Part shown: positions 6,434 to 46,033 of the stretch, in pieces | How the letters are laid out: each line of letters starts with the position of its first letter | Numbering within the stretch: the stretch's first letter is position 1 | Origin: Ilumatobacteraceae bacterium | GTDB lineage: Bacteria; Actinomycetota; Acidimicrobiia; Acidimicrobiales; Ilumatobacteraceae | DNA: 64,000 nt | Reading direction: 5' to 3' | Assembly: GCA_033344875.1 (NCBI GenBank) | Contig: JAWPMO010000001.1 | Coordinates: 1,885,595 to 1,949,594, forward strand | Notes under the pieces: model-generated | Seen by the model: only the letters and a program-made list of their open reading frames with translations | Told to the model about the DNA's origin: nothing | Databases searched by the model: none | Program-made: the position numbers and the translations under genes

Positions 6434-6478
6434 GGTGCGTTGTCTCCTGGTTCGCCGGATGTCGTGCCCTGGCGGGCG

Positions 6479-6484
6479 ACGGTA
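6479..6484 (-). promoter_or_regulatory. Candidate -10 for the S9 peptidase gene
   Basis: TACCGT on the minus strand about 45 nt before the peptidase ATG, predicting a short leader that contains the AGGAG ribosome-binding site. It makes the peptidase a likely separate unit from the katE operon upstream. Confidence 0.4.
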
Positions 6485-6525
6485 CCGGATCGTCGGGTGG
6501 CGGCCGGTCGCGACGCCGGCCGATC

Positions 6526-12783: not shown

Positions 12784-12856
12784 GCACAGGCTCTACCCCG
12801 TCCCGGTCGGGTTGAAGCGCCTGCGTCAAGTCGACCGGAAGTGGGTAGTCGAAGGC

Positions 12857-13642
12857 GTGCCCATTCCCCAGCGTCGAACCCACCCCCCGACGATCCGGCG
12901 CGTCGGGATCGTGCTGCCCGCTCGCGACGAAGCCGGTCGCGTCGCCGACGCGATCGTCGCGATCGGCGAAGCGGCCGCGGCGGTCGTCCACCGCGTCGAC
13001 GTGTCGGTCATGGTCGTCGACCACGGCAGCACCGACGCGACCCGAGTCGAAGCGGAGCGCGCCCTCGACGTCATCCGGCAGCGTGTAACCCGCGCCGGGT
13101 TGGTCTCCGCGACGCGAGGCGGGGTGGGAACCGCACGCCACATCGGAATCCGGGCGCTCACCGACGGCTGGGAGGACCCTGCGGCTACGTGGTTGCTGTC
13201 GACCGACGCCGACTCACGTGTCCGCCCCGACTGGATCCGCCGGTATCTCCGTCATGCCGAAGCGGGCACCATGGCGGTCGCCGGGATCGTCGATCTGTTC
13301 GATGACGGCGAGGCCGACGATTTCCGTGACCGTTGGCGTTGCGACTACGGCTCGACGCTCATGGCCGACGGTCGCCACCCGCACGCCCACGCGGCCAACC
13401 TCGGTGTCCGACTCGACGCCTACCGGAGCGTCGGTGGATTCCGTGATGTCGGGCCGGCCGACGACCGCGACCTCTGGAGCCGTCTCCGACAGCGCGGTGT
13501 CGAACCGGTCGCCGACGCATCGATCGTGGTCGACACCAGCGGACGCCGGGCGGGACGGGTGCCGACCGGGTTCGCCCACGCGCTGGCGACGCTGTACCCG
13601 GCCGGCCGGGACCGTCTGGGCGACCGACCGCTGGCGGGCTGA
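12857..13642 (+). CDS. Family 2 glycosyltransferase
   Basis: GT-A fold transferase with VLPARDEAGRV near the N-terminus, VDHGSTDATR, the DxD-containing STDADSR and the acceptor region GFRDVGPADDRDLWSRL. From the GTG at 12857 it is 261 residues. The frame is open to an ATG at 12782, but that would overlap the PIG-L promoter and add an unusual basic N-terminus. Divergent from the PIG-L unit, with which it probably acts on the same glycoconjugate. Confidence 0.8.
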   Translation: MPIPQRRTHPPTIRRVGIVLPARDEAGRVADAIVAIGEAAAAVVHRVDVSVMVVDHGSTDATRVEAERALDVIRQRVTRAGLVSATRGGVGTARHIGIRALTDGWEDPAATWLLSTDADSRVRPDWIRRYLRHAEAGTMAVAGIVDLFDDGEADDFRDRWRCDYGSTLMADGRHPHAHAANLGVRLDAYRSVGGFRDVGPADDRDLWSRLRQRGVEPVADASIVVDTSGRRAGRVPTGFAHALATLYPAGRDRLGDRPLAG

Positions 13643-31146: not shown

Positions 31147-31219
31147 CCTCGTACCGATCGGGACGGCCAGGCACAGCGACGCGCCCGTACTCAGGCCGTC
31201 TGGCTCGTGGTCGATCGGG

Positions 31220-31225
31220 TAGGTT
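31220..31225 (+). promoter_or_regulatory. Candidate -10 for the FemAB-like gene
   Basis: TAGGTT 20 nt before the GTG; the short leader carries GAGGGA. Confidence 0.4.
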
Positions 31226-31245
31226 CGACCGGAAGTGAGGGAAAC

Positions 31246-32250
31246 GTGGACCACAAGCACTGGTACGAGGTGGCGCGGGCCGACCCGGCGGCGACGTTCT
31301 TCCAGACGCCCCTGTGGTCCGAGATCTCCTGCGATGTACTCGGAGCGACATCCGATTTCACCCGGTCCTTCGAGCTCGAATCTGGAGTGCGGGTGGTCGT
31401 CCCCCTCGTCGGGGTCGGACGACCGGGACCGATGCGGCATGTCATCTCGACAGCGACGGGCTGCTACGGGGGCTTGATCGCCGACGGGCCGGTCTCACCG
31501 GACGAGGCGACCCAGGTGTACCTGCGAGTAATGAGCCGATCGACGTTGTCGTTCCAGTTCCTGGAGTCGCCATTGCGTCAATACCGACTCGGGCCCGAGT
31601 TCACCGCTCACGCGACGGCACGGCCGGAGAGCGCCTGGCTGATCGATCTGGAGGACGGGTTCGACGCCGCCTACCAACGGATGCCGCGCCGGATCCGTGA
31701 GTACCACCGCAGCGGGATTCGCAAGGGTGTTTCGGTCTCCGAGAGCGACAGTCTGGCCGACTACCGGTCGGCCTTCGATGCGTATCAAGACGCGATCCTC
31801 CGTTGGGGTGAAAGTTTGGATTACGGGTACGGGTGGGAGGTCTTCGAGCGGATCCATGCCGCCGCCCGACTGCACCCCGATCTGATCAAGATGTGGATCG
31901 CTCGAGTCGACGGTGAGGTGGCCGGCGGTCGGCTGGTGTTCTACTGGAACCGTCACGCGGTGCTGTGGCACGGCACAGCCCGTCGGGAGTTCCTGAAATA
32001 CCGGGTCATCCCGATTGCCGACATCGAGGTGATGCGAGACGCCGCTGCACGCGGCTACTCGGTGTACGACCTCAACACCAGCGGCGATCAGCCTCAGGTC
32101 GTCGAGTACAAGCGACGCATGGGTGCGAGCGACACCCCACTCCAGATCTGGCGCCGTGAATCACCGGTGGTGCGTCTCGGTCGCGGTGGCAAGCGAGCGG
32201 GACGCGTCGTCGCCCGGAGCCTACGTTCGGTCGCTCGGAAGGCTCACTGA
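31246..32250 (+). CDS. FemAB/BioF2-like acyltransferase
   Basis: 334 residues from a GTG with GAGG 6 nt upstream. Two tandem GNAT-like halves: DPAATFFQTPLWSEI at the start, then RMPRRIREYHRSGIRKG, and the second half with MWIARVDGEVAGGRLVFYW and YDLNTSGDQPQVVEYKRRMG. This is the arrangement of FemAB-related enzymes that occur in exosortase-type polysaccharide loci and in cell-wall bridge formation. Likely acylates an amino sugar with an aminoacyl or acyl group; substrate unknown. Confidence 0.8.
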   Translation: MDHKHWYEVARADPAATFFQTPLWSEISCDVLGATSDFTRSFELESGVRVVVPLVGVGRPGPMRHVISTATGCYGGLIADGPVSPDEATQVYLRVMSRSTLSFQFLESPLRQYRLGPEFTAHATARPESAWLIDLEDGFDAAYQRMPRRIREYHRSGIRKGVSVSESDSLADYRSAFDAYQDAILRWGESLDYGYGWEVFERIHAAARLHPDLIKMWIARVDGEVAGGRLVFYWNRHAVLWHGTARREFLKYRVIPIADIEVMRDAAARGYSVYDLNTSGDQPQVVEYKRRMGASDTPLQIWRRESPVVRLGRGGKRAGRVVARSLRSVARKAH

Positions 32251-32308
32251 GCAGCGCGGGAGACCTGATCGACGAGACCGGTGCGGTCTGGGTGGTACTT
32301 GGCTCGCA

Positions 32309-32314
32309 TAGGCT
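32309..32314 (+). promoter_or_regulatory. -10 element of a leaderless promoter (GNAT)
   Basis: TAGGCT, 6-nt spacer, GTG at 32321. Confidence 0.6.
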
Positions 32315-32320
32315 GGGAGT

Positions 32321-32971
32321 GTGCGGCAAGTGATTTCGCGGAACGGTACCTGGCTCGTCAGGTGTTACCCGAGGTACCACTCGATCGAGGGCGGCGGCGT
32401 CGAGCTGTTCACACCTCAGGTCCGTCAGACCCGGACGGTGCAGCGATGTATCACCGACCCCGGCGCCCAGCGTTATCTCGGTTGGCAGCCGGAGTGGATC
32501 GCCGACCTGATGGGTCCTGACCCCCGGCGGGTGCGATACGACCCGCGCCCGCAGCCGTGGCTCGGCGAGTTCCTCATGTTCGGTGTGCGCCGCATGGGAT
32601 CAAGCGAGATCGTCGGTCATGCGTGGATGACGTTCGACGAAGACGGTGTGGCCGAGGGCAGTCTGGGACTGCGACCTGATCAGCGTCGGGCAGGATTGGC
32701 GATGTCGATTGGTGTGGCCGGGGCCGCCTTCCTTCATCGGCACCTCGGCTACGAAGTGGCCCAGTTCCACACAGAAGTGACGAACGTCGGCGTCCACAAA
32801 GTGTCGGAGCGTGCGGGCAGAGAACCGGATGATTCGACGTCGGTGCGTCATCTCCCCGACGGTCGTACGGTCGAATCGAACCTGTACCGCAGCGTCGAAC
32901 CGGATGTGACCTGCGTGTGTCGGCGGTGGCAACCTCGTCACACGTCTGGCGACGCCGCCGGGTCACAGTGA
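32321..32971 (+). CDS. GNAT-like acetyltransferase
   Basis: 216 residues. The central part (GEFLMFGVRRMGSSEIVGHAW followed by FDEDGVAEGSLGLRPDQRRAG) has the beta-strand pair and R-x-x-R/G-x-A loop of GNAT enzymes, although the AcCoA loop is imperfect. The N-terminal 70 residues are not recognised. Placement between acyl- and glycosyltransferases suggests sugar modification. Confidence 0.6.
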   Translation: MRQVISRNGTWLVRCYPRYHSIEGGGVELFTPQVRQTRTVQRCITDPGAQRYLGWQPEWIADLMGPDPRRVRYDPRPQPWLGEFLMFGVRRMGSSEIVGHAWMTFDEDGVAEGSLGLRPDQRRAGLAMSIGVAGAAFLHRHLGYEVAQFHTEVTNVGVHKVSERAGREPDDSTSVRHLPDGRTVESNLYRSVEPDVTCVCRRWQPRHTSGDAAGSQ

Positions 32972-33016
32972 TCGATGTTCCCGAGCGGTCGTCGGCGGAC
33001 GGCGGAGCCAGCAAAA

Positions 33017-33022
33017 TAACGT
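33017..33022 (+). promoter_or_regulatory. Candidate -10 for the GT2 gene at 33048
   Basis: TAACGT 25 nt before the ATG; no strong ribosome-binding site intervenes. Confidence 0.4.
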
Positions 33023-33047
33023 CGGCCATCCCGCCCCGAGACACCTG

Positions 33048-34049
33048 ATGAGCAGCATCGAGCCGGCGATCAGCGTCGTCGTTCCGACCTTCAATCGGTG
33101 TGAGCGGCTCCACCGAGTGCTGACGTCATTGGCGAATCAGGAGGTCGCAGCCGACTACGAGGTGATCGTGGTGTCCGACGGATCGACGGATGGCACCGAC
33201 GAATACCTCCGCAGTGAGCAGCTGCCACTACCCGTCGTTGCGGTGACGCAGGAGAACCAGGGGCCGGCAGCGACACGAAACCACGGCGTCCAACGTGCCC
33301 GAGGGCGCCTCATCCTCTTTCTCGACGACGACGTGGTGGCCGACCCCGGCCTGCTACAGGCCCACCTGGATGCCCACGCGCGCTTTGACGGTGGTGTGGT
33401 CGTCATCGGGCCGATGCTCGACCCTCCCGACCACGCAATGACCTCATGGGTGGTCTGGGAACAGCGGATGTTGGCGAAGCAGTACCAGGCGATGGAGAAG
33501 GGCAAGTACGCGGCGACGGCACGGCAGTTCTACACCGGGAACGCATCGCTGCTGCGGGCTGACTTCGATGCAGCGGGCGGTTTCGACAGCCGATTCCGGC
33601 GGGCCGAGGACGTCGAGCTCGCGTTTCGGCTCGACGACAACGGACTGGCATTCCGGTACGAGCCGCGCGCCGTCGGTCTGCACTATGCCGAACGTTCCCA
33701 CGAGGCGTGGATCGACACCGCTCGCGTGTACGGACACAACGATGTCGTCTTCGCCCGCGATCTCGGGCACCGATTCATCTACGGGGTGATCAGGGAGAGC
33801 TACAGCGCCCACCACTTCACCTTGCGTGTGCTCACTCAGCTGGCCTTGGCGAGTGGACCGATCGATTGCTTCGTGACCCGCCGACTGGCGGCGCTCGTGG
33901 AGGCATACCCAGAAGGCCGCCGCCGGAAGATCATGGGTTATGTGTTGAGTGCGCAGTATTGCCTGGAGTACCACCGGGGCGTCACCGAGGAACTGGGCTC
34001 GGTTCGGGACTTTCGTCGCCTCGTGATCTTCCGCAGATCCCCGTCCTGA
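33048..34049 (+). CDS. Family 2 glycosyltransferase
   Basis: 333 residues. ISVVVPTFNRCERL, VVSDGSTDGTDEYL, LFLDDDVVADPGLL (DxD) and the acceptor segment FDSRFRRAEDVELAFRLDD are all canonical. The C-terminal 90 residues are helical, as in transferases that dock at the membrane. Convergent with the GT4 gene that follows, 3 bp apart. Confidence 0.92.
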   Translation: MSSIEPAISVVVPTFNRCERLHRVLTSLANQEVAADYEVIVVSDGSTDGTDEYLRSEQLPLPVVAVTQENQGPAATRNHGVQRARGRLILFLDDDVVADPGLLQAHLDAHARFDGGVVVIGPMLDPPDHAMTSWVVWEQRMLAKQYQAMEKGKYAATARQFYTGNASLLRADFDAAGGFDSRFRRAEDVELAFRLDDNGLAFRYEPRAVGLHYAERSHEAWIDTARVYGHNDVVFARDLGHRFIYGVIRESYSAHHFTLRVLTQLALASGPIDCFVTRRLAALVEAYPEGRRRKIMGYVLSAQYCLEYHRGVTEELGSVRDFRRLVIFRRSPS

Positions 34050-34052
34050 ACC

Positions 34053-35135
34053 TCAGCCCGTCCGGGCGGTCACACTCTCGCGAACGATCGCGATCAGTTC
34101 GTCGGCGTTCCGACGTGCATCGTAGCGCTCGGTGGCCCGCTGCCGCGCGGCGACGCTCATCCGGCGTTGGAGCGATTCGTCGTCGACCAAGCGTGTGAGC
34201 GCTGCTGCGAGGGCGTCGACGTCGCCCACCGGGATCGTGAATCCGGTCTCGTCGTCGCTCACGATGTCTTCCAGGCCGCCGATTCGGGAAGCCACCACGG
34301 GGAGGCCGGTGCTGGCTGCCTCCAGAGCCGCTATGCCGAATGTCTCGGCACGACTCGGCAAGGCGAACACGCAGGCACTCCGGAACAACTCGATCAGTCG
34401 TACATCGTTGGGGCCGAGGTCGTCCACCACGTGGACCCCGTCCATCGACGGCACCGCCGACTTGGTGACCACCCACAGATCACAGCGGTCGGCGATGGTG
34501 CGGTAGGCCTCCAGCAACAGATCACCGCCCTTGCGTTCGAACTCGCCGCCGACGAACAGGATTCTCGGTCGACCGTGCGGCCGGCGATCCGGAGACGGAC
34601 TCCATGTCTCCGTGTCGACCCCAGGCGGGACGATCGAGACGAGGTCGGGGTCGACGCCATAGTCGTCGATGATCGAACTGGCAGCCCACGAACTCCAGCC
34701 GACACATCGTGCAGCTCCGGCGAAGACCTGGGTGTTGACCCGGTGCTTCCACCAGCGCATCGGACCGGGCCGGTCGGGCTCGTGGCCGTAGCCGACGGCC
34801 ATCTGGTCGTACTGCACCGGCGTCACGTCCGTGATCACGATGTAGGGGCGCGACCTCGCCTCTCGCCCCCCGAGCGCGGCCGGGACTTGGGTGTTGAACA
34901 CGTTGATGTCTGCATCGGCCGAACGCAGTCCGCTGCGGATCTCGCGTCGAGCATCGACCGACGGTTGGAATCGACCGAACGGCCGGCTTCCGGCGCGGTC
35001 CGCCCCGTAAGTCACCGGGATCCAGGTCGCATCGAGGCCGGTTCGGCCGTCAACGGCCTGCCGGAGATTCTCGGCGTAGGTGCGGTGGCCGACGTGTTGC
35101 TCGAGCGCGAAGGCAACGCTGAGAACGTCACGCAT
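34053..35135 (-). CDS. Family 4 glycosyltransferase
   Basis: 360 residues from the ATG at 35135; the open frame continues 81 codons further but that part is not protein-like. VAFALEQHVGHRTYAENLRQ opens the N-domain, SIVPPGVDTETW is the hinge, ILFVGGEFERKGGDLLLEAY follows, and LEAASTGLPVVASRIGGLED closes the donor site. Paralogue of the gene at 25777-26910. The start overlaps the end of an 18-codon upstream ORF. Confidence 0.9.
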   Translation of the reverse strand: MRDVLSVAFALEQHVGHRTYAENLRQAVDGRTGLDATWIPVTYGADRAGSRPFGRFQPSVDARREIRSGLRSADADINVFNTQVPAALGGREARSRPYIVITDVTPVQYDQMAVGYGHEPDRPGPMRWWKHRVNTQVFAGAARCVGWSSWAASSIIDDYGVDPDLVSIVPPGVDTETWSPSPDRRPHGRPRILFVGGEFERKGGDLLLEAYRTIADRCDLWVVTKSAVPSMDGVHVVDDLGPNDVRLIELFRSACVFALPSRAETFGIAALEAASTGLPVVASRIGGLEDIVSDDETGFTIPVGDVDALAAALTRLVDDESLQRRMSVAARQRATERYDARRNADELIAIVRESVTARTG

Positions 35136-35184
35136 CGGGGGCTCGGCCCCTCGTACCGTCGTCTGAGCCCACCGCCGTCCGCAT
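35128..35184 (-). CDS. Candidate leaderless upstream ORF, 18 aa
   Basis: ATG at 35184, exactly 6 nt after TAACGT. The 18-residue peptide (MRTAVGSDDGTRGRAPDA) ends at a TGA 8 bp inside the start region of the GT4 gene, so terminating ribosomes are placed on the next ATG. No SD with good spacing serves the GT4 gene itself. Confidence 0.4.
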   Translation of the reverse strand: MRTAVGSDDGTRGRAPDA

Positions 35185-35190
35185 GCTGCC

Positions 35191-35196
35191 ACGTTA
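35191..35196 (-). promoter_or_regulatory. -10 element, minus strand
   Basis: TAACGT, 6-nt spacer, ATG of the upstream ORF. Confidence 0.5.
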
Positions 35197-35252
35197 ACGG
35201 TCGAGATCGACTCACCGACGCCAGACCCGTGCCGGTCGCCGCGTCGTCCTGC

Positions 35253-35258
35253 TACCGT
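35253..35258 (+). promoter_or_regulatory. -10 element upstream of the GT2 gene
   Basis: TACCGT. Transcription would begin near 35265-35266, where the glycosyltransferase frame offers ATC and no ATG, GTG or TTG. Confidence 0.45.
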
Positions 35259-35292
35259 TCCGACTATCGAAGCACAGCCGGAGATCGACCTC

Positions 35293-36192
35293 TTGGTCTG
35301 TACGAAGGATCGTCCCACCGACTTGGCGATGATGATCCCCACCGTCGCCGCCCAGCAGGGTCCGAGATTTCGGTGCATCGTGGTCGATCAGAGTGGCGAT
35401 CGAACCGCCAACCGAGTGCTGTTCGCGACGCTGGACGACGACCGGTTCGTCGTGATCGACGACGACCGCGTCGGCAAGAGCCGAGCGCTCAACACCGGCC
35501 TCCGGGCCACGACCGCTCCGATCGTGGCCTTCACCGACGACGACTGTGAACTTCCCGCGGGTTGGCTCGCCAGGGCGGTCGCGGCGCTCGACGGTGACGT
35601 CGGCTTGGCGTTCGGGAACGTCGAGGCGGCAGGTCACGACCCGAGCGAGTACTTCATCCCGACGCTCGAGTTCGACACGGACGAAACCATTGAACCTGGC
35701 CAGATCCTGGTTCCTACCCTGCTCGGCATGGGTGCGAGCATGGTGGTCGAGCGATCGGTGGTCGAGCGAATCGGCGGGTTCGACGAGATGCTCGGACCGG
35801 GCGGGGTGTTTTATACGGGCGAGGATTGCGAGTTCGCGTATCGAGCACTCCGATCAGGGGTCGCGGTCCGACGTGTTCCCTCGTGGAAGCTGATCCACCA
35901 TGGCAGGCGCACGCTCGACGACGACGTCGCTCGACGGCTGGTCGTCAACAGCTTCTTCGCCATCGGTGTCGGGTACGGGAAGCATGTTCGCCACGGTGAT
36001 TGGCGTGCGGCCGCGATCAGCGTGGTGATGATTGCCCGCAACGTGGCGGAGATGACAACTCGGCTGATCCGTGGTCGCAGGCCGCTCCACATCCGGCGGT
36101 TCCTCGCCTTCGTCCGCGGCGTGGGGACCGGGCTACGCGCGGGCCTCGAGGTGCCCGAGATCGCGGCGCATCAGCGCGAATCGGAGACGTGA
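35293..36192 (+). CDS. Family 2 glycosyltransferase with an unclear start
   Basis: At least 299 residues. VCTKDRPTDLAMMIPTV, VVDQSGDRTANRV, TDDDCELPAG (DxD) and GPGGVFYTGEDCEFAYRAL identify the fold. The only standard start, TTG at 35293, falls inside the first beta-strand: the frame continues upstream as I-E-A-Q-P-E-I-D-L-L before VCTKDRP, which looks like the natural N-terminus. A -10 element 7 nt before the in-frame ATC at 35266 suggests initiation there. Homologous in layout to the gene at 29142-30053. Confidence 0.85.
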   Translation: MVCTKDRPTDLAMMIPTVAAQQGPRFRCIVVDQSGDRTANRVLFATLDDDRFVVIDDDRVGKSRALNTGLRATTAPIVAFTDDDCELPAGWLARAVAALDGDVGLAFGNVEAAGHDPSEYFIPTLEFDTDETIEPGQILVPTLLGMGASMVVERSVVERIGGFDEMLGPGGVFYTGEDCEFAYRALRSGVAVRRVPSWKLIHHGRRTLDDDVARRLVVNSFFAIGVGYGKHVRHGDWRAAAISVVMIARNVAEMTTRLIRGRRPLHIRRFLAFVRGVGTGLRAGLEVPEIAAHQRESET

Positions 36193-36202
36193 GAAGCGCC
36201 GT

Positions 36203-36904
36203 TCACGCCCAGACTCGTTCGACCGGCTCGTGCCCACCCAGCGCAAGCGCGTGCGACCTCACCGAGTCCAGCCATGCGTCGGACACCTGGCTGGCGAAGG
36301 TCTGGGAGAGTTCCAGTTTGGCATCGAGGTCGATCACCTCATCGACAGGTGCCAACTGCGACAGGACGTCGTCGGGAACGGTGTGCTCAGGCGTGCCCGC
36401 TGCTGCGTACGGCAGGTCTTCGTAGAACGCCACAGGTAGCCCCGCCCGGCGGTGCTCGAGTCCGATGTCTCGCAGTATGACGTGGTCCGGATGCGGGTTC
36501 TCGCCGCACGCGATCGGGAAATAGATGTTCGTGGCCGCCTTCATGTGGTGCGAGAGCCGTCGCCTGATCGCCGGGAGCATTCGGTGCCCCATGTACACGG
36601 GTTTGCCCGTCATGAGGAACTTGCGTATCTGATCGCGGCGGCCGCCTCGATCGGCGCAATCCCAGAAGTCGAGGAACCTCGCTTCGAAGCCCAGCAGTTC
36701 GCTGGCCGTCATCGCCTCTCGCCGACGGATCTTGGGCACATGACGTGACCCGGCCTCGGCCGCGGGTGCATCGGGGTTCGTCCACGTCGACAGCGGAAAG
36801 ACGTAGACGACTCGGGCGTCGAGGTTCCGCGCCTGCCACGCCAACAGCCGACCGCCCATCGACAGGACGCAGTCGTCGATGTGTGGTGCGACGACGACAT
36901 GCAT
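36203..36904 (-). CDS. PIG-L family deacetylase
   Basis: 233 residues from the ATG at 36904. The metal motif is the variant PHIDDCVLSMGG (His, Asp, Asp) and the second site is ENPHPDHVILRDIG. The family N-deacetylates GlcNAc-containing substrates; within this locus it could free an amino group for the FemAB- or GNAT-type acyltransferases nearby. A TACGGT element lies 8 nt before the start. Confidence 0.88.
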   Translation of the reverse strand: MHVVVAPHIDDCVLSMGGRLLAWQARNLDARVVYVFPLSTWTNPDAPAAEAGSRHVPKIRRREAMTASELLGFEARFLDFWDCADRGGRRDQIRKFLMTGKPVYMGHRMLPAIRRRLSHHMKAATNIYFPIACGENPHPDHVILRDIGLEHRRAGLPVAFYEDLPYAAAGTPEHTVPDDVLSQLAPVDEVIDLDAKLELSQTFASQVSDAWLDSVRSHALALGGHEPVERVWA

Positions 36905-36912
36905 GGCAGCGC

Positions 36913-36918
36913 ACCGTA
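36913..36918 (-). promoter_or_regulatory. -10 element of a near-leaderless promoter (PIG-L)
   Basis: TACGGT on the minus strand, 8-nt spacer, ATG at 36904. Confidence 0.5.
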
Positions 36919-36953
36919 TCAGGAGCGAAGATCGTGGCGTCTGGACGGCGGGG

Positions 36954-38147
36954 TCAGTTGGTGGGTCGAGTCGTAACCGGTTCACCGTCGGCCCGATGAG
37001 CCGCGGGAACATAGGGATGGTGCACCTTGCGGCGGTTGATCGGCGCCTCGAAGAGTCGCCACGAGGCGGTCGATGCGAGGACCGTCACCATGGTCACCGC
37101 GACGAAGAGGACCACCCCGTACTCGGGCACCGAGACCCCCACCTTGTCGCCCGCCGTTCGAGCCGACTGTTCGATGAACGGATGGAGGAGATACATCCCG
37201 TAGCTGACGACCCCGATGTGTGTCATCGGGGTCGATTCCAGGAACCTCCCGATCGGACCTGGGACACCTCGACACGCGGCGTGGACTACGACGATGCAGA
37301 TCAAGGGGATGGACATCCTGGTGACGCCGGCGATGGTGTCGGCATCGTTGAAGGCTGCGATCCGATTGACGGCGAGCAACGCGACGCCGGCGATGCCGCA
37401 CCAGCGGACGAACAGCGACGCGCCGTGCTCCGAGCGCCACGCCCAGGCCAACGCCGCCCCGAGGCCGAGAGCATCGAACGTCGACGGGGTGATGATGTCG
37501 ATACCGGGCCGCCACATGTCCGTCGCCGTGACGAGCACGCCACGTGTGACCGGGCCCACGGCGACCATCGCGCCGATCACCCAGGGGAGTGCCCTGCGGG
37601 GCACGAGCAGGATCACGAGCGGCCAGAACAGGTAGAACTGTTCCTCGACCGCGAGCGACCAGGCGTGGGTGGCGACGTTCCACTGCTCGTCGAAAGCGAT
37701 GTACCAGTTCGACGTGTAGGTGAGGTACCACCAGAAGCCGGCCCGCACCCCGTCGAAGTTCAAGAGCGCAGCGACGAAGATCGTTGCGTAGTAGATCGGG
37801 AAGATCCTGAGGAATCTCCGGATGTAGAACGCTCGCAACACGGTGCCGGTCGACGTGTCCGTCGATGCGGCCGACCCTCGGGCGTCGAGCAGGATGCCGG
37901 TGATCAGGAACCCGCTGATCGCGAAGAACAAGGTGACGCCTTCCTCGCCCCACACGACCCAAGGCCGGTGGTAGACGTCGACGGTGTGCGTGGCGATGAC
38001 GGCCAACACAGCGATTGCCCGCAACCCGTTGAGTTGGCCGAAGTATCGCTGGTCCAAGTAGCCTCCCGCTGCTGTGTCGGCCACCCTATCGAAGCCGGAC
38101 GGACGTACCGGGCGAGGTGGTTCGGTGGCCGGTGGTCGCGCGGTCAC
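36954..38147 (-). CDS. Acyltransferase-3 family O-acyltransferase (OafA-like)
   Basis: 397-residue integral membrane protein with about ten helices. LNGLRAIAVLAVIATHT at the start of the domain and GVTLFFAISGFLITGILL are diagnostic. These enzymes transfer acetyl or other acyl groups to sugars during export. The GTG at 38147 overlaps the stop of the upstream glycosyltransferase (GTGA). The C-terminal tail is short and there is no SGNH fusion. Confidence 0.9.
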   Translation of the reverse strand: MTARPPATEPPRPVRPSGFDRVADTAAGGYLDQRYFGQLNGLRAIAVLAVIATHTVDVYHRPWVVWGEEGVTLFFAISGFLITGILLDARGSAASTDTSTGTVLRAFYIRRFLRIFPIYYATIFVAALLNFDGVRAGFWWYLTYTSNWYIAFDEQWNVATHAWSLAVEEQFYLFWPLVILLVPRRALPWVIGAMVAVGPVTRGVLVTATDMWRPGIDIITPSTFDALGLGAALAWAWRSEHGASLFVRWCGIAGVALLAVNRIAAFNDADTIAGVTRMSIPLICIVVVHAACRGVPGPIGRFLESTPMTHIGVVSYGMYLLHPFIEQSARTAGDKVGVSVPEYGVVLFVAVTMVTVLASTASWRLFEAPINRRKVHHPYVPAAHRADGEPVTTRPTN

Positions 38148-38854
38148 CGCCCGAGGCGGCGACGTATCCGGTGCAGAAGACCTGAAGACATCGACGGGAG
38201 CGGATTCAGCGGGTCGTCGAGGTGCCGTTCGTCACCGAGGTGGTAGTACACACCGGGAACGAGGAACCATCGCTTGAGACCGTGCTCGAGGTACGCGGCG
38301 TTCACCGCGCCTTCGGTCGACAGGTGCTCGTACGGCCCGATGTCTCGCCAATTGCTCACGCGCAGCAGGTGAGGGCTGAACGAGTACCCGCTCCAGGGGT
38401 CGCTCTCCTCGTACTGCACGAAGGCGGCACCTCCGTGGTGGACGGGAGGCTGGAACACCCGCGCTCGATCCAGGTGGGTCTGGATCGAACCTGTCTGGCG
38501 TGCCCAGATGCCACTCGCGTCCGGAGTTGCCTCCAGCGCTGCGTGCAGGTGTGGGATGAACTCGACGGGATCGAAGGCCCAGTCGTCCTCGCAGTGGAAG
38601 ACGTACGGGGTCTCGACCAGCGAGTAGAGCTTGTCGATCGAGCGGTGCTGACCGATCGGGGATTCGGAGGTGAGCAGGACGACGTCGTCGATCTCCTGAC
38701 GCACGACCTCGTCGGTCGCGGCGTCGCCTCGGTCGTTCGTCACGAGTACCTGGTCGAAGAACTTGCCGTTGTACGGCAGGAGCGATCGGAGCGTCTCGCG
38801 CAGCAGATCGGGGCGCCCACCGGAGGTGATGCACAGGGAGACACCGAGGCTCAT
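38144..38854 (-). CDS. Glycosyltransferase-like protein (GT-A)
   Basis: 236 residues. VSLCITSGGRPDLLRETLRSL at the N-terminus and HCEDDWAFDPVEFI (EDD in place of DxD) place it near family 2. Later segments such as DPWSGYSFSPHLLR and STEGAVNAAYLEHGLKRWFLVPGVYYHLGD resemble small sugar transferases of variable loci. Coupled to the downstream O-acyltransferase. Confidence 0.75.
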   Translation of the reverse strand: MSLGVSLCITSGGRPDLLRETLRSLLPYNGKFFDQVLVTNDRGDAATDEVVRQEIDDVVLLTSESPIGQHRSIDKLYSLVETPYVFHCEDDWAFDPVEFIPHLHAALEATPDASGIWARQTGSIQTHLDRARVFQPPVHHGGAAFVQYEESDPWSGYSFSPHLLRVSNWRDIGPYEHLSTEGAVNAAYLEHGLKRWFLVPGVYYHLGDERHLDDPLNPLPSMSSGLLHRIRRRLGR

Positions 38855-38937
38855 ACCGACCCCAGTTCTGCATGGCGTCGGTCACCGGCGCGGAGCACGC
38901 GAGTCCTCAACGGACGGCATTCGCACTCGCTGACCAT
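38851..38937 (-). CDS. Candidate leaderless upstream ORF, 28 aa
   Basis: ATG at 38937, 7 nt after TAGTGT. It encodes a 28-residue Arg/Cys/Glu-containing peptide (MVSECECRPLRTRVLRAGDR onward) and ends at a TGA overlapping the glycosyltransferase ATG (ATGA). No SD precedes that ATG. Confidence 0.38.
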   Translation of the reverse strand: MVSECECRPLRTRVLRAGDRRHAELGSV

Positions 38938-38944
38938 GTTGCCG

Positions 38945-38950
38945 ACACTA
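38945..38950 (-). promoter_or_regulatory. -10 element, minus strand
   Basis: TAGTGT, 7-nt spacer, ATG of the 28-codon upstream ORF. Confidence 0.45.
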
Positions 38951-39010
38951 CAGCGAGGCGTGCTGGTCGGGTGACTCGTCCCACGCCGAATGCCCTCTGA
39001 CCTGGTCTGC

Positions 39011-39016
39011 TACGGT
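39011..39016 (+). promoter_or_regulatory. -10 element of a near-leaderless promoter (2OG oxygenase)
   Basis: TACGGT, 8-nt spacer, ATG at 39025. Confidence 0.5.
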
Positions 39017-39024
39017 CCCGCACG

Positions 39025-39828
39025 ATGGTCGAGTCATTGCAGACGTGCGCGCTCCTCGAGAACGTTCTGGCGGACGATGACCTCGTCGCCTTGAAGCAGG
39101 CGTGTCAGCGAGCGATGCGACGTGACGATCCGATCCCCAGCTACGTGATGCTCGATGATCTCGCCTCCCCCGTCTACCAAAAGGTGCATCGGTGCATCGA
39201 CGAAACGCTCGGGGAACAGGTCTTCTACCTGAACGACTTCTACCTGTACTCGGACGAGTCGTTCGGCGCTCCCTGGCACATGGACACCGAGTTGTTCACG
39301 TTCGCCCGTTGTGTGAACGCTTGGATCCTGCTCTCGCCAGGCGAGATCGAGAGCCCGTTGTCGTTCATCGACGACATGAACGCTGGCGCCGATGTCGACT
39401 TCCATTCGGTCTCGGCGAACGACGAGGATTTCGTGTTCACCAACTATCGGACGCGAAAGCGTCTGACCCGGTCTCGAGACGAGGTCGACGAGCAGCGCGT
39501 CGATGCCCCCACGGTCAAGGCAGGTGACATCTTGCTGATCGATCCGAAGCGGTTCCATCGCACGAAGACCACCGTGCCGAAGCATGCGCTCGTCTTCAAG
39601 TTCCTCCTGAAGGGCGAGAACGGGTTCATGTCGGACTACCAGGTGCCGCCCATGTTCTGGGCCGAGATAGCGATCTTCAAAGACCTGGTGGAGAACAGCG
39701 CCGAGTGGTCGGACGTCTTGGATGGCATCCGCGGGCAGCTCCGGACCGAACACGGTCGGACGGCGCTCAGCGCAGGGTTCTTTCCGGACAGGATCGAGTT
39801 GTACCGGAAGATGGCTGCAACGCTCTGA
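39025..39828 (+). CDS. Fe(II)/2-oxoglutarate-dependent oxygenase-like protein
   Basis: 267 residues with a double-stranded beta-helix core: FYLYSDESFGAPWHMDTELF supplies the HxD iron ligands (about residues 91-93) and LLIDPKRFHRTKTT the distal His. This resembles the phytanoyl-CoA dioxygenase group, which hydroxylates small molecules. In a polysaccharide locus, hydroxylation of an acyl or amino substituent is possible but speculative. The neighbouring decarboxylase/ligase cassette could use its product. Confidence 0.7.
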   Translation: MVESLQTCALLENVLADDDLVALKQACQRAMRRDDPIPSYVMLDDLASPVYQKVHRCIDETLGEQVFYLNDFYLYSDESFGAPWHMDTELFTFARCVNAWILLSPGEIESPLSFIDDMNAGADVDFHSVSANDEDFVFTNYRTRKRLTRSRDEVDEQRVDAPTVKAGDILLIDPKRFHRTKTTVPKHALVFKFLLKGENGFMSDYQVPPMFWAEIAIFKDLVENSAEWSDVLDGIRGQLRTEHGRTALSAGFFPDRIELYRKMAATL

Positions 39829-39881
39829 CGCCGGCGACCCTCAGTGGTGATCGTTCCGAGTCGATCGATTGCTCGTTCGGT

Positions 39882-41189
39882 TCACGGGGCGATCACGCCG
39901 GCCAAACCGTCGTGACCGGTACCTGCCGAACGGATCAGGCGGGCCGTACCACCTTCGACCCAGACTTCGGCCGGCCCCGGGTGGCTGAGGAACCCCATCG
40001 GGCTCGCACTGCGACCGTAGGCACCCGATTGGAGTACCGCGATCACGTCGCCGGGTTGCACCTCCGGAATGGTGAGATCGCGGGCGAGTGTGTCGAGCGG
40101 GGTGCACAGCGGCCCGACGAGTTGGGCCGGCGGTGCGTCCGCTGCGAGGAGGTGATCGGCAGCGACGATCGGGTAGTTCCGCTTGATCACCTGCCCGAGA
40201 TTGCCGGACGCGGCCAGATGATGGTGCATGCCGCCGTCGATGATCACGAATGTGGAGCCGCGCGACTGCTTCACGTCGCGGACCGTCGCCAGGTAGACAC
40301 CTGCTTCCCCGGCGAGGAAGCGGCCGGGCTCGACGAGGAACTGGGTCTCGGCGAGCGCCGCCGGCCGGTCGGCCATCAACGCCGTCACACCGACCCGTAG
40401 CGCCTCGAGATCCAGCTGCCGGTCACGGTCGAAGTACGGGATGCCGAGGCCACCGCCGAAGTCGACGGTGCTGAGCGGCCGGCCGATCAGATCACCGACC
40501 CGTACCGCGACCTCGATCGCTTTGCGGTATTGGGCGATGAGGACGTCCGCCGAGAGTATCTGGGTGCCGGCGAACAGGTGGACGCCGACGAGTTCGATGC
40601 CCGGCAATTTTTCGAGTGCGGCGACGACGTGGTCGAGTTCTTCTTCGTCCACGCCGAACGGTGCGGGCTGCCCACCCATCCGCATCGCTCCGCCCTGGGC
40701 TTCGCTGTCGGGATTGACGCGGACTGCAACTCTGGTCGTCACGCCGCGCTCGGTGGCGAGCGCTGAGAGCCGTTCCGCTTCGAGGAGGGATTCGACATGG
40801 ATCTCGGCGATCCCATGGTCGATCGCAGCGGCGAGTTCCTCGGGGGCCTTGCCCGGTCCGGCGAACAACGTCTTCGCCGGATCCCCGCCCGCGGCGATCA
40901 CGGTGTTCAGCTCGCCGGCCGAGGCGATCTCCAAGCGGGCACCGAAGGAGACGAGGCGCTCGACGACAGCGGGGTGTGGGTTCGCCTTGATCGAATAGCA
41001 GATGTCGATCTCGTTCGGCAGTGCGTTGCGCAACGCCAGCCAACTGCGCTCCAGACCCGCTGCGGAGTAGGCATAGATGGGGCTCCCGAATTCACGGACC
41101 AGATCCGAGGCGCTGACACCGTCGAGTACGAGTTGGTCCGACGAGCCGGGGAAGCATCGTGCGACGAGGGCTGCGGTTCGTTCGTTCAT
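39882..41189 (-). CDS. PLP-dependent decarboxylase, LysA/exosortase-associated type
   Basis: 435-residue fold-type III decarboxylase. The PLP lysine is in CYSIKANPHP (about residue 68), with EIASAGEL, VDFGGGLGIPYF, LVEPGRFL and the C-terminal GAYGRSASPMGFLSHP. Family members decarboxylate diaminopimelate, ornithine or related amino acids. The closest pattern I know is the decarboxylase that accompanies AMP ligases in exosortase A loci. The start overlaps the ligase stop (ATGA). Free diaminopimelate decarboxylase activity is less likely given the context. Confidence 0.85.
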   Translation of the reverse strand: MNERTAALVARCFPGSSDQLVLDGVSASDLVREFGSPIYAYSAAGLERSWLALRNALPNEIDICYSIKANPHPAVVERLVSFGARLEIASAGELNTVIAAGGDPAKTLFAGPGKAPEELAAAIDHGIAEIHVESLLEAERLSALATERGVTTRVAVRVNPDSEAQGGAMRMGGQPAPFGVDEEELDHVVAALEKLPGIELVGVHLFAGTQILSADVLIAQYRKAIEVAVRVGDLIGRPLSTVDFGGGLGIPYFDRDRQLDLEALRVGVTALMADRPAALAETQFLVEPGRFLAGEAGVYLATVRDVKQSRGSTFVIIDGGMHHHLAASGNLGQVIKRNYPIVAADHLLAADAPPAQLVGPLCTPLDTLARDLTIPEVQPGDVIAVLQSGAYGRSASPMGFLSHPGPAEVWVEGGTARLIRSAGTGHDGLAGVIAP

Positions 41190-42763
41190 GACGTCTCCTC
41201 GGCTCTGGCCTTGAGCTCCGGATAGTTGACCTTGCCGGTGGAGGTCTGCGGCAGGCTCGAGACGACTCGAACACTACGGGGCACCATGTGCGGCGGGCGA
41301 TGAGCGGCCACGTGCGCGATGATCTCGGCTTCGACCACGTCGGCTGACGGAGCGGCGACGACGAACAGCACGATCGTCTGCCCGAGCGCATCGTCGGAGG
41401 CACCGACGGCCGCGGCAGCCGAGACGGCGTCGTGGGACAGGGCGACCGACTCGACCTCGGTCGGGCTGACCCGGTAACCCGACGTCTTGATCATCGCGTC
41501 GCCTCGTCCGACGAAGTAGAGAAAGCCTTCGTCGTCGGTTCGCACCAGATCGCCCGAGAAGCACACGAGCTCCTGGGCCGTCGGCGAGTTCTCGCCGTCG
41601 TCGAGCGTGCGGAGCCGTTGTGCCGTGAGATCGGGACGACCCCAGTAGCCCAGCGAGACCGTCGGGCCGCGATGGACCAACTCGCCGACCTCCCCGGGGT
41701 CACAACGTGTACCGTCGGGGCGGAGCACGAGGATCTCGGTGTTCGGGATCGCCTTGCCCATCGAATCGGGGCGTCGGTCGAGTTCCGCCGGGTCCAGGTA
41801 GGTCGAGCGGAATGCCTCGGTCAGTCCGTACATCAGGAAGATCTGGGTGTGAGGCAGGGCTTGTCGGAGCTGTTCGAGGATCGACGCCGGCATGTGTCCA
41901 CCCGTGTTGGTGATGTACCGCAAGCTCGACATGTCGCTCTGGACGAGTCCTGATCGCGGATGCACGAGGAGGTGCCACAGCGTGGGGACGCCGGCGAGCG
42001 CAGTGACCCGCTCGCTTTCGATCGCGTTGACGATCTCGCGCCCGAACGTGAACGACATCGGGAGAATGGTCGCACCTTGATCGAACGCGGTGATCAATTG
42101 GTTCAATCCGGCATCGAAGCTGAAGGGGAGCACGCCGAGGATCCGGTCGTCGGACCGAATGCCGAGATAGTCGGACACGATCGCCGATCCGGCGAGGACC
42201 TGTTCGTGGCTGATCATGACGCCCTTTGGCCTGCCCGTCGACCCGGAGGTGTACATCAGCCCGGCAAGGTCGCGGCCGATCGCGACGTCTGTGAGTGAGC
42301 TCGCGGTGTGCGCCGCGACCTCGTCGAGGTCGACGGCCGGTAGCGCTGCGCTGAAGGCCGCGGCCGAACCATCACACATGACGATGGAGGACAGTGGCGT
42401 CAGGTCGACGTCTGCTTCGATGAGGGAGGTGAGCCGCTCGCGCACGGTGATGAGGACCGACATGCCGCAGTCGGCGATGATGTGGCCGACCTGATCCGGG
42501 AAGAGCCCGACATGGATCGGGACGAATACTCCGCCCGCTTCACTCGCAGCAAAGATCGAGATCGCCTGGTCGATCCCTGCTTCCAGCAGCACACCGACGC
42601 GACCGCCGCGTCGGAGGCCTGCGGAGCGCAGGCCACTCGCCAACGCGGTACAGGCGGTGGCCGCTTCGCCGTACGTTCGGCGCTCCGACCCCGCAACGAT
42701 GGCTTCCTGAGAGTGATCGCGTGCAGCGCTGGCCTGCAGCAGATGATGCAGCAGGTAGTTCAT
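41186..42763 (-). CDS. AMP-forming acyl-CoA/acyl-ACP ligase
   Basis: About 525 residues of the ANL superfamily. MYTSGSTGRPKGVMISH is the P-loop-like A3 motif, MYGLTEAFRSTYLDP is A5, SGDLVRTDDEGFLYFVGRGDAMIKTSGYRVSP is A7-A8, and the C-terminal catalytic Lys is in TSTGKVNYPEL. It probably activates an amino or fatty acid and loads it onto the adjacent carrier protein. Start chosen at the ATG at 42763; a GTG at 42775 is also possible. Confidence 0.88.
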   Translation of the reverse strand: MNYLLHHLLQASAARDHSQEAIVAGSERRTYGEAATACTALASGLRSAGLRRGGRVGVLLEAGIDQAISIFAASEAGGVFVPIHVGLFPDQVGHIIADCGMSVLITVRERLTSLIEADVDLTPLSSIVMCDGSAAAFSAALPAVDLDEVAAHTASSLTDVAIGRDLAGLMYTSGSTGRPKGVMISHEQVLAGSAIVSDYLGIRSDDRILGVLPFSFDAGLNQLITAFDQGATILPMSFTFGREIVNAIESERVTALAGVPTLWHLLVHPRSGLVQSDMSSLRYITNTGGHMPASILEQLRQALPHTQIFLMYGLTEAFRSTYLDPAELDRRPDSMGKAIPNTEILVLRPDGTRCDPGEVGELVHRGPTVSLGYWGRPDLTAQRLRTLDDGENSPTAQELVCFSGDLVRTDDEGFLYFVGRGDAMIKTSGYRVSPTEVESVALSHDAVSAAAAVGASDDALGQTIVLFVVAAPSADVVEAEIIAHVAAHRPPHMVPRSVRVVSSLPQTSTGKVNYPELKARAEETS

Positions 42764-42780
42764 GCGGCGGGGCACGTCAC

Positions 42781-43074
42781 CTACGAACGCTTGCTGTCGA
42801 CGAGTTGCGAGATGGAGTCCACCGTCTCGAAGTGCTCGGCGGTCAACTCGTCGTCGTCGATCATGATGTCGAACTTCTCCTCGACGAACATCACGATGTC
42901 GAGCATGCCGAGGGAGTCGACAGCGCCGGACTCGAGGAGCGAGTCGCCGGTGGCGAGATCGTCGGGCAGTGCTGGGAAGCGTTGCGTCACGAACGAGGTG
43001 ACAACGGCAGTCGTCGACGCGTCATCTGGCGTCGTCGAGTCCGGGTCGGTCATGTCGGGCGATGGGTGATTCAT
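42781..43074 (-). CDS. Acyl carrier protein
   Basis: 97 residues; a Pro/Thr/Asp-rich N-terminus precedes a carrier domain with the phosphopantetheine Ser in ESGAVDSLGMLDIV (about Ser 54) and FVEEKFDIMIDDDELTAEHF. A dedicated ACP next to a ligase and a decarboxylase indicates a tethered acyl or aminoacyl intermediate. The ATG at 43074 overlaps the preceding gene's stop (ATGA); a second ATG lies at 43053. Confidence 0.9.
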   Translation of the reverse strand: MNHPSPDMTDPDSTTPDDASTTAVVTSFVTQRFPALPDDLATGDSLLESGAVDSLGMLDIVMFVEEKFDIMIDDDELTAEHFETVDSISQLVDSKRS

Positions 43075-44042
43075 TCTGTCCTCCGTGTGACCAATCGGCC
43101 GGCGGCTCTCTTCACTTGACGCATTCTCCACAGCGCGATCTGAACGGCCTGCCGAGCCTGGTAGGCGCGGGTGGGGGGCAGGCTCTTCGGAACGGTCGTG
43201 ATGTCGAGCAACATCACCTCGGAGTAGAGGTTGTCGATCTGCTCGGGGTTGAGGTTGCCGGGATTGGCGACGAGTGCGACGGTCCGATCCGGGAGTAGCC
43301 GTGCGCAGGTGGCTCCACGTGACCAGGTGAAACGATTGCCGGCGAAGACGGTGCTCACACCCTCGGTCGTCTGCATCGTCGCCACGATCCCGTCGGCATG
43401 CTCGACGAAGAGTTCTGGATTGCTGACGTGGTCGATACGGAGGTACGGGCGTCGGTGGATGGTGCTCTTGCTCGCGACGATCAGGCAGGCGGCGTCGCCG
43501 TCTCTTGCGACGTACCACCGGCACGTCGGGATCCACTGGTGATCGCTGACGATCTGCCGTTCGGTGGGGCCGAGCGCCCCGAGGACTCCGAGATGGCCCG
43601 GCGTGACGGTGAGTGTCGACGACTGTTTGGTCTCCGGTTCGAACAGGCGTGTCGATGTTTCCAGTTCCTGGAAGCCGAGCCGTAGCGAGATGCGTTCGGC
43701 CTCGACGGACGGGCTGAAGTCGGTCACGACGTGACCGTCGAGCCGGAGCGGAGGTCGCATCATCGCCAGGCTCGATCCACGGTGCTCGGGCTCGACATAC
43801 CACGTGGTCAAGTTGCAGAAGCGAAAAGGTTCCCCATCGATGTGACGGTCGACGGTGACTGCACCGAGAAACCCGACGGCTCGATCATCTTCGTGCAGGA
43901 TCCAACCGGGTGACGTCTCCGGATCGGACCAGGGCGGCGCGAGGAGGCCGACCACCTCGCTCGCGCTGAATCCGAACAGGTCCCCGATGAGATCGTGGAC
44001 GAGATCGAACGTGGATGCGTCAATAGAAACAAGGTCAGGCAT
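43071..44042 (-). CDS. GNAT-like acyltransferase upstream of the ACP
   Basis: 323 residues. The first half has SPGWILHEDDRAVGFLGAV, CNLTTWYVEPEHRGSSLAMM and SVEAERISLRLGFQELE, the strand/loop order of GNAT enzymes; the second half is less clear. GAGGGG lies before the ATG. Coupling to the ACP suggests it takes its acyl group from that carrier, the role played by the acyltransferases of exosortase-type cassettes. This last point is inference. Confidence 0.7.
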   Translation of the reverse strand: MPDLVSIDASTFDLVHDLIGDLFGFSASEVVGLLAPPWSDPETSPGWILHEDDRAVGFLGAVTVDRHIDGEPFRFCNLTTWYVEPEHRGSSLAMMRPPLRLDGHVVTDFSPSVEAERISLRLGFQELETSTRLFEPETKQSSTLTVTPGHLGVLGALGPTERQIVSDHQWIPTCRWYVARDGDAACLIVASKSTIHRRPYLRIDHVSNPELFVEHADGIVATMQTTEGVSTVFAGNRFTWSRGATCARLLPDRTVALVANPGNLNPEQIDNLYSEVMLLDITTVPKSLPPTRAYQARQAVQIALWRMRQVKRAAGRLVTRRTE

Positions 44043-45244: not shown

Positions 45245-46033
45245 TCAGCTCCACTCCTCCCAGCGGTCATAGGCGCCGTGCAGCGCAGCCGTGAAGCGGC
45301 GATCGCTGTCGACCGACGTGATAAACGTTCGAGGAATCGTCCCGGCCGGACGTTTGTCTTCCGACTGGGCGTACACGTGGTGGTAGCCGGCGGAGTGGGC
45401 CATCGCCGTCAGTTCGTCGCTCCAGGTCGCAGCGACACCGAACGGGATCGCGAACGAGTCGACCACCGTGCCCAGTTCCTCGCTGATGCGTCGGCCGGAC
45501 TCCACCATCTCGCGGCGAGCATCGTCGTCGGTGATGCTGCTGAAGTCGGGGTGGCTCAGCGAGTGGCTGCCGATCTCCACCCCGGCGTCCGCGAGTTCGC
45601 GGACGCCCGACCAGCTGAGGGTCTTGTCGCGTTGCCACTGGTGGTCGTGGTCGAGCCACGACGTCACCACGAAACATGTGGCGGGTACGTCGAATTCGTG
45701 CAGGATCGGAACCGCTGTCTCGAGGACGCTGCGAAGACCGTCGTCGAAGGTGATCGCCAGATCCTTCGCTGAGCCGCCGCCAGTCGCCGCGTCGGCAGCG
45801 GGCACGAATCGATGACCCTGCGACAGCGCCAGGTCGAGCTGCCGGCGGAATCGATCGGCGGTGACGTCGTTGACGCCGTATTCGGGTTGGCCCACCGAGT
45901 GGTAGCAGAGGATCCTGGTCCGTGCTGATGGCTCGCCGGGGCGGAGCGCGAGCGCTGTCCGCTCAGCCAGGAGCCGTGCGTGTGCAACACGTTCCCGCGT
46001 GATGCCCAGGCGTCGCCGGAGTTGGGTGATCAT
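45245..46033 (-). CDS. Polysaccharide deacetylase (NodB domain)
   Basis: 262 residues. RILCYHSVG, the catalytic TFDDGLRSV (about residues 94-102), SWLDHDHQW and the metal-binding SHSLSHPDF (about 157) are canonical for carbohydrate esterase family 4. There is no clear signal peptide; the N-terminal helix may be peripheral. Likely N-deacetylates GlcNAc-type residues of the polymer or precursor. GAGG lies 8 nt before the ATG. Confidence 0.92.
   Translation of the reverse strand: MITQLRRRLGITRERVAHARLLAERTALALRPGEPSARTRILCYHSVGQPEYGVNDVTADRFRRQLDLALSQGHRFVPAADAATGGGSAKDLAITFDDGLRSVLETAVPILHEFDVPATCFVVTSWLDHDHQWQRDKTLSWSGVRELADAGVEIGSHSLSHPDFSSITDDDARREMVESGRRISEELGTVVDSFAIPFGVAATWSDELTAMAHSAGYHHVYAQSEDKRPAGTIPRTFITSVDSDRRFTAALHGAYDRWEEWS

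Follow-up and report, generated by a model that had tools for sequence, protein, structure and literature searches.

What might a gene cassette of the kind named after exosortase A do in a genome that has no exosortase? This question is raised by four genes in a 64,000-nucleotide stretch of an Ilumatobacteraceae genome (assembly GCA_033344875.1, contig JAWPMO010000001.1, positions 1,885,595 to 1,949,594), the whole of which we refer to as the window. The genes form a minus-strand run from 44042 to 39882 that encodes, in order, a putative tandem-GNAT acyltransferase of 323 aa (43071–44042), a freestanding acyl carrier protein (ACP) of 97 aa (42781–43074), an AMP-forming ligase of 529 aa (41186–42775) and a pyridoxal phosphate (PLP)-dependent decarboxylase of 435 aa (39882–41189). 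All four frames are intact, with 4-base ATGA stop/start overlaps at GNAT/ACP and ligase/decarboxylase and a spacing of 5 bases from ACP to ligase. An earlier, sequence-only reading of this DNA had correctly recognised the run, and had suggested that it could make an amine or hydroxy-acyl group on the ACP for transfer to an amino sugar. We propose that the cassette probably carries out VinN/BtrK-like loading and decarboxylation to give an omega-aminoacyl-ACP, followed by GNAT-mediated transfer.

In the first step of this scheme, the ligase would take an amino-dicarboxylic acid, for which L-Asp and L-Glu are the likeliest candidates, adenylate its side-chain carboxylate and load it onto the ACP; conservation of VinN residues suggests that an Arg and a Thr would grip the alpha-carboxylate and an Asp the amino group. 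Judging from its homology, the BtrK-like PLP enzyme would then strip the free alpha-carboxylate from the ACP-bound residue, so that Asp would become beta-alanyl-ACP and Glu gamma-aminobutyryl (GABA)-ACP. Finally, the GNAT protein, whose fold is predicted, would hand this group, its primary amine still free, to an acceptor. Of the two products suggested earlier, the amine-bearing group fits this scheme; a hydroxy-acyl product is not favoured, because the VinN residues that bind the amino group (Asp) and the carboxylate (Arg) are retained in the ligase. An exosortase is not required in the proposed pathway.

The ligase (PF00501/PF13193) passes the cut-off of TIGR03098 (ligase_PEP_1) narrowly, with 593.7 against 592.35 bits. 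When the whole protein is used as the query, adenylation domains of nonribosomal peptide synthetases (NRPSs) rank top; when the pocket region alone is used, VinN (3wv4) is the first match in the PDB, at 73.2 bits. VinN holds (methyl)aspartate with the side-chain carboxylate placed for activation, and a triad of residues binds the amino group and the spare carboxylate. The triad, Asp230/Ser299/Arg331, corresponds to Asp/Thr/Arg in the window ligase; the loop, which is of the shorter VinN kind, aligns ungapped and at the same length, and Thr for Ser299 is a conservative change.

This triad is kept consistently in related loci. Our 80 named loci are the best 80 of at least 570 confirmed, were seeded by the window's decarboxylase family and extend at most about 10 kb to each side; fractions given for them are not population estimates. 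Across 90 loci, 76 related ligases could be aligned, or 73 once three duplicate stretches (L033/L059, L034/L063 and L035/L072) were removed. The Arg is present in 76/76 (73/73 distinct), Ser or Thr in 76/76 (73/73) and the Asp in 75/76 (72/73), one row being truncated. The triad is also intact in all 13 ligases whose genomes gave an exosortase match over cut-off. Neither the Arg nor the Asp occurs in any of six other AMP-ligase open reading frames (ORFs) of the same loci, four of which are distinct and informative (two are one gene, and that of L114 is a fragment). There are two pocket types: the residue that follows the pocket Asp is Ala in the window ligase and in 48 of the 76 relatives, Tyr in 27 and a gap in one; its VinN counterpart, Phe231, has been reported to be important for Asp binding. 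We propose that the ligase is VinN-like, a putative side-chain-carboxylate loader for an amino-dicarboxylic acid.

The decarboxylase (PF02784/PF00278) scores 430.6 bits on TIGR03099 (dCO2ase_PEP1), under the cut-off of 478.45, and 283.9 on the lysA model TIGR01048, under the cut-off of 297.9. Hence, the assignment to an exosortase-associated gene set holds for the ligase but not for the decarboxylase, and the label "LysA-like" holds at the level of the superfamily only. The closest solved relatives are structures of BtrK (7ru7 and 2j66, 276 and 275 bits), and the best diaminopimelate decarboxylase (DapDC) reaches 210 bits. The window enzyme is 36% identical to BtrK, against 28% for the LysA that the genome encodes elsewhere, a separate protein of the CESGD type. 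The window enzyme and BtrK have the motifs GPLCTPxD and DGGMHHH in common, the first reading CTPLD in the window, as it also does in L106. CTPxD is found in 82 of 84 decarboxylase rows (the window counted) and CTSxD in the other two, whereas four DapDCs carry CE(S/T)xD at this position. In DapDCs, the Glu of this motif contributes to the binding of diaminopimelate.

A quick tree of a 44-row subset, with support from the Shimodaira–Hasegawa-like approximate likelihood ratio test (SH-aLRT) and no bootstrap, sets the four DapDCs apart, at 99%, from the other 40 rows, which include BtrK and SbnH. The window decarboxylase lies in a 12-row set (support 98) with Nitrospira, Acidobacteriaceae, Gemmatimonadetes, Blastopirellula, Rhizobiales and two Actinomycetes bins. 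This joins, at support 93, a 16-row set (support 100) of Massilia, Roseateles relatives, Sphingobium and many Actinomycetota. We therefore rejected LysA as the identity of the window enzyme, given the distinct LysA elsewhere in the genome, the sub-threshold lysA score, the CTPLD motif and the position in the tree. We also set aside an SbnH-like siderophore decarboxylase; CTPxD is common to both, but the branch in the 44-row tree is very long. By sequence comparison, the decarboxylase is BtrK-like, closer to BtrK than to DapDC, and as a putative enzyme of the BtrK/VinO type it would be expected to act on a carrier-bound substrate. Three decarboxylases on the BtrK side, from Paenibacillus (L088:10001–11236), Glycomyces (L102:10001–11236) and Streptomyces (L107:10001–11284), carry the motif CTPND, with no cassette ligase in the flanking 1.5 kb, and each may belong to another biosynthetic cluster.

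The remaining two proteins are less easily placed by sequence. The ACP matches several NCBIfam ACP models, all under their cut-offs (best NF058660, 49.9 bits, cut-off 80), and its attachment Ser is likely that in VDSLGML. For the 323-aa protein, no family reaches E ≤ 0.001, and the GNAT matches are weak (E 0.003–0.007). An AlphaFold2 model built from 33 sequences (predicted local distance difference test, pLDDT, 87) has a two-domain GNAT fold; its nearest structures are N-myristoyltransferases (NMT), Eis and a glucosamine N-acetyltransferase region (Z 13.4–14.2), and Foldseek matches it to Eis2 at E 8e-11. The product of 43071–44042 is thus predicted to be a tandem GNAT. NCBIfam matched none of the 33 members of this family, and each of two Pfam GNAT models weakly matched three of the 33. 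We considered whether the protein lacks the CoA diphosphate loop, as might suit an ACP-bound donor. The residues past the invariant Arg88 vary, which is compatible with this idea and not diagnostic, and we did not use it.

The four genes form a recurrent set, although not an invariable one. A ligase lies within 1.5 kb of the decarboxylase in 66 of the 80 named loci, and these 66 have an ACP in 59 cases and the same GNAT in 27, within 4.5 kb. The GNAT family is present in 33 of the 90 loci. In some loci that lack it, another gene of the GNAT superfamily stands beside the ligase or ACP: PF13480 in L037 and L081, and Acetyltransf_1 in L038 and two Rubrobacteraceae loci. FemAB-type proteins, to which PF13480 belongs, may therefore fill the GNAT slot elsewhere. 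One Mycolicibacterium vaccae locus (L099) has the cassette GNAT twice, at 5865–6728 and 12498–13394, which suggests two acceptors or sites. Closer to the window, the decarboxylase is found at E ≤ 1e-100 in 24 of 396 sampled genomes of the phylum, and contigs shared with the named loci place 22 of the 24 carriers in one family, the Rubrobacteraceae. Among 149 genomes of relatives, the GNAT matched only the window's own genome; hence, the cassette is sporadic here.

Several known pathways combine the same kinds of part. VinN/VinL/VinO are an adenylation enzyme, a freestanding carrier and a PLP decarboxylase that yield 3-aminoisobutyryl-ACP (PMC11284099); BolO/BolC/BolN are the same three-part set, with beta-alanyl-ACP as the proposed product and a bolN deletion in support (PMC7756342); AfcQ/AfcK/AfcP are a further such set, likewise with beta-alanyl-ACP as product, in which AfcQ takes L-Asp, and not beta-Ala, in vitro (PMC12186527); and BtrK decarboxylates carrier-bound glutamyl-BtrI in butirosin synthesis (PMC7857480). 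The window cassette is like Vin in having a stand-alone adenylation enzyme with the triad, a freestanding ACP and a PLP decarboxylase that would act on an ACP-bound amino acid, VinO being compared by description. It is unlike Vin in two respects: Vin feeds a polyketide synthase (PKS) through VinM and VinK, whereas the window has a tandem GNAT and a polysaccharide locus, and VinN Phe231 is Ala in the window ligase. The likeness to butirosin BtrI/BtrK lies in the decarboxylase, of which BtrK is the closest solved relative, and the Btr product goes to an aminoglycoside. In butirosin synthesis, the carrier is loaded by an ATP-grasp enzyme, BtrJ, and BtrH and BtrG are used, not a GNAT. Bol and Afc have the same three kinds of part, by description and not by sequence; both are lipopeptide pathways and, in the text available for them, have no GNAT or glycan context, whereas the window cassette adds a GNAT.

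Several points count against the proposal that the cassette loads, decarboxylates and transfers an omega-amino acid. Over the pocket region, feruloyl-CoA synthetase scores 72.8 bits, only 0.4 behind VinN; because the lead is so small, it is the pocket residues that carry the argument for VinN, not the score. The conserved Arg speaks for a shared class of substrate and not for its identity. With Ala at the site of Phe231, Asp and Glu are indistinguishable as substrates on present sequence grounds, and the substrate may even be some third acid. The branch that leads to BtrK is long, and its grouping, with a support of 80, gives it no firm position relative to the cassette clade. No ligase lies within 1.5 kb in 14 of the 80 decarboxylase loci, four of which begin less than 300 bases from a contig end. 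The GNAT might also take its acyl group from a different donor. Finally, no glycosyltransferase was detected within the locus stretch in 14 of 32 GNAT-bearing named loci, including all ten from the window's own subclade (20 rows, drawn from a separate decarboxylase tree).

What, then, is the acceptor? The cassette lies within a polysaccharide locus (20674–59299) in which Pfam matches identify a UDP-sugar dehydrogenase, an initiating sugar transferase, Wzx-like and Wzy-like proteins, glycosyltransferases, WecG, two DegT aminotransferases, a GFO/IDH/MocA protein, a hexapeptide transferase and a pyruvyl transferase. From this position alone, an amino or hydroxyl group of the locus polysaccharide is a plausible, if tentative, candidate for the acceptor in the window. 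Homologues of the window glycosyltransferases lie near the cassette in 18 of the 32 GNAT-bearing named loci, and the 14 loci without a detected one imply that a glycan acceptor is not general. Detection of glycosyltransferases was weak, in that a glycosyltransferase domain in L038 was missed.

An alternative explanation is that the cassette belongs to a small natural-product pathway, making a free beta-alanyl or GABA metabolite or a lipid, and lies in the polysaccharide locus by chance. We consider this unlikely, although it accounts for some of the data. The known users of this chemistry, Vin, Btr, Bol and Afc, make antibiotics; several Rhizobiales and two Actinomycetes bins have no detected glycosyltransferase near the cassette; and the neighbours scanned in L039 and L047 have metabolic or transport roles. 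However, the window genes scanned include neither a PKS nor an NRPS, and a glycosyltransferase is nearby in 18 of the 22 GNAT loci outside the window subclade.

A second alternative separates the enzymes, with a LysA- or ornithine decarboxylase-like enzyme acting on a free diamino acid to give a diamine or lysine, and the ligase and ACP activating a fatty or hydroxy acid on their own account. The decarboxylase does belong to the same PLP-decarboxylase superfamily and scores 283.9 bits on the lysA model, and the ligase superfamily includes acyl-CoA ligases, one of which, feruloyl-CoA synthetase, nearly equals VinN over the pocket. Nonetheless, the lysA score is sub-threshold, the genome has its own CESGD-type LysA, the DapDCs stand apart in the tree, and every related ligase row retains the Arg and the Ser/Thr, all of which makes this alternative very unlikely.

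The proposal that an omega-aminoacyl group is made and transferred leaves the name of the cassette to be explained. The window is part of a genome assembled as a single contig of 4.97 Mb with an estimated completeness of 99.65%. Searches of the whole genome for exosortase (PF09721) and archaeosortase/exosortase (TIGR04178) gave no match. The PEP-CTERM model TIGR02595 also gave none, and the same search gave 20, 16 and 6 in three exosortase-bearing control genomes. In these searches, the absence noted earlier for the window extends to the entire genome, and none of the features that mark an exosortase A system, namely an exosortase, PEP-CTERM tails and a FemAB protein of the TIGR03019 type (one FemAB-like gene tested), was detected. 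The cassette is like the exosortase A set (TIGR03098/TIGR03099) in its ligase score and in that many loci have a ligase–decarboxylase order with an ACP near; it is unlike that set in having no exosortase or PEP-CTERM match and in its sub-threshold decarboxylase.

A missing exosortase is not unusual among relatives. We looked for exosortase in 50 of the 80 named-locus genomes, many of them metagenome-assembled genomes of unstated completeness; 16 gave a match, 15 of them over cut-off, and 34 did not. No match was found in the 18 Actinomycetota of this set, in 12 further actinobacterial genomes (11 with the decarboxylase) or in eight tested Rhizobiales of the window subclade (L039, L043, L044, L046, L048, L049, L052 and L054). 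Only one of the 90 locus stretches (L060) itself includes an exosortase. The cassette is separable from exosortase A, because most tested genomes with the decarboxylase, including all the Actinomycetota among them, gave no exosortase. That the window cassette is instead a relic of an exosortase A system that lost its exosortase is highly improbable: the ligase passes TIGR03098 and the 12-row clade holds exosortase-bearing Nitrospira, Acidobacteriaceae and Blastopirellula, but the four frames are intact and tightly coupled, and the Actinomycetota and Rhizobiales that gave no exosortase match indicate that the set persists without one.

The chemistry that we propose is already known from Vin, Btr, Bol and Afc. 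We found no paper in the open-licence literature that assigns VinN/BtrK-type enzymology to the TIGR03098/TIGR03099 cassette, and none there that links exosortase with BtrK or with beta-alanine, decarboxylase and polysaccharide; the accessions and names of the two models likewise led to no paper in that literature. The two models are named for the company their members keep, exosortase A, and not for chemistry. If our proposal is correct, the label "exosortase-associated" is too narrow, exosortase-linked polysaccharide loci gain a concrete step from Asp or Glu to beta-alanyl- or GABA-ACP, and chemistry of the antibiotic type extends to surface-glycan or other pathways in several bacterial phyla.

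It would also suggest a candidate amine acceptor for exosortase. In this idea, the acceptor for exosortase A would be a product of the cassette: a beta-alanyl or GABA group would provide the exopolysaccharide, or its lipid-linked precursor, with a flexible primary amine, and in exosortase-bearing bacteria this amine would be the nucleophile to which transpeptidation joins PEP-CTERM proteins. In bacteria without exosortase, this one included, the same amine would serve some other purpose, on the glycan or on a different molecule. We regard the idea as a distinctly long shot; it would explain why an amino-acid ligase, an ACP and a decarboxylase travel with exosortase A.

The other genes that the sequence-only reading had associated with the cassette are all present nearby, but a functional connection was not borne out. 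The FemAB-like GNAT gene (PF13480) is on the plus strand at 31207–32250, the start originally noted, 31246, being internal to this ORF. It lies 7.6 kb from the cassette, and its 51 bits on TIGR03019 (cut-off 260.35) are at odds with the suggestion that it is the FemAB of an exosortase system. We rejected it as a cassette part, since it has a single, 20-bit match (L063) across the 80 loci; a link to FemAB-type proteins is nonetheless real in general, as PF13480 proteins adjoin the ligase in L037 and L081. The PIG-L de-N-acetylase (36203–37012, minus strand; PF02585, 47.5 bits) and the converging PhyH-like 2-oxoglutarate oxygenase (39025–39828, plus strand; PF05721, 25.6 bits) were likewise rejected as cassette parts, given that no homologue of either is labelled beside the cassette in the 80 related loci. 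It is possible that the PIG-L deacetylase is a source of free sugar amine, and hydroxylation of a sugar or of the aminoacyl group is a conceivable role for the oxygenase. Upstream, a polysaccharide deacetylase (45245–46033, minus strand; PF01522, 89.2 bits) is a general glycan-locus gene, and similar deacetylases occur in many cassette loci.

Some related loci include hydrolases. In exosortase-bearing genomes, alpha/beta hydrolases of the hydr1/hydr2 type lie near the cassette (L076:3873–5805 and L070:6995–7831); no counterpart was found among the window genes scanned. In vicenistatin synthesis, the amidohydrolase VinJ removes an alanyl group, and by analogy the hydrolases of L076 and L070 could play a VinJ-like role. 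An Armatimonadota locus (L066:6979–11206) combines a hydr1_PEP-like hydrolase (104 bits, under cut-off) with an ACP, a ligase that shares the pocket residues Lys-Arg with VinN, and a BtrK-side decarboxylase; it seems to stand between the natural-product and exosortase types. Lastly, the G+C content of the polysaccharide locus (about 22000–60000 of the window) is about 0.64–0.68, versus about 0.68–0.72 at 4–20 kb, and the lower value is in line with an exchangeable surface-glycan locus.

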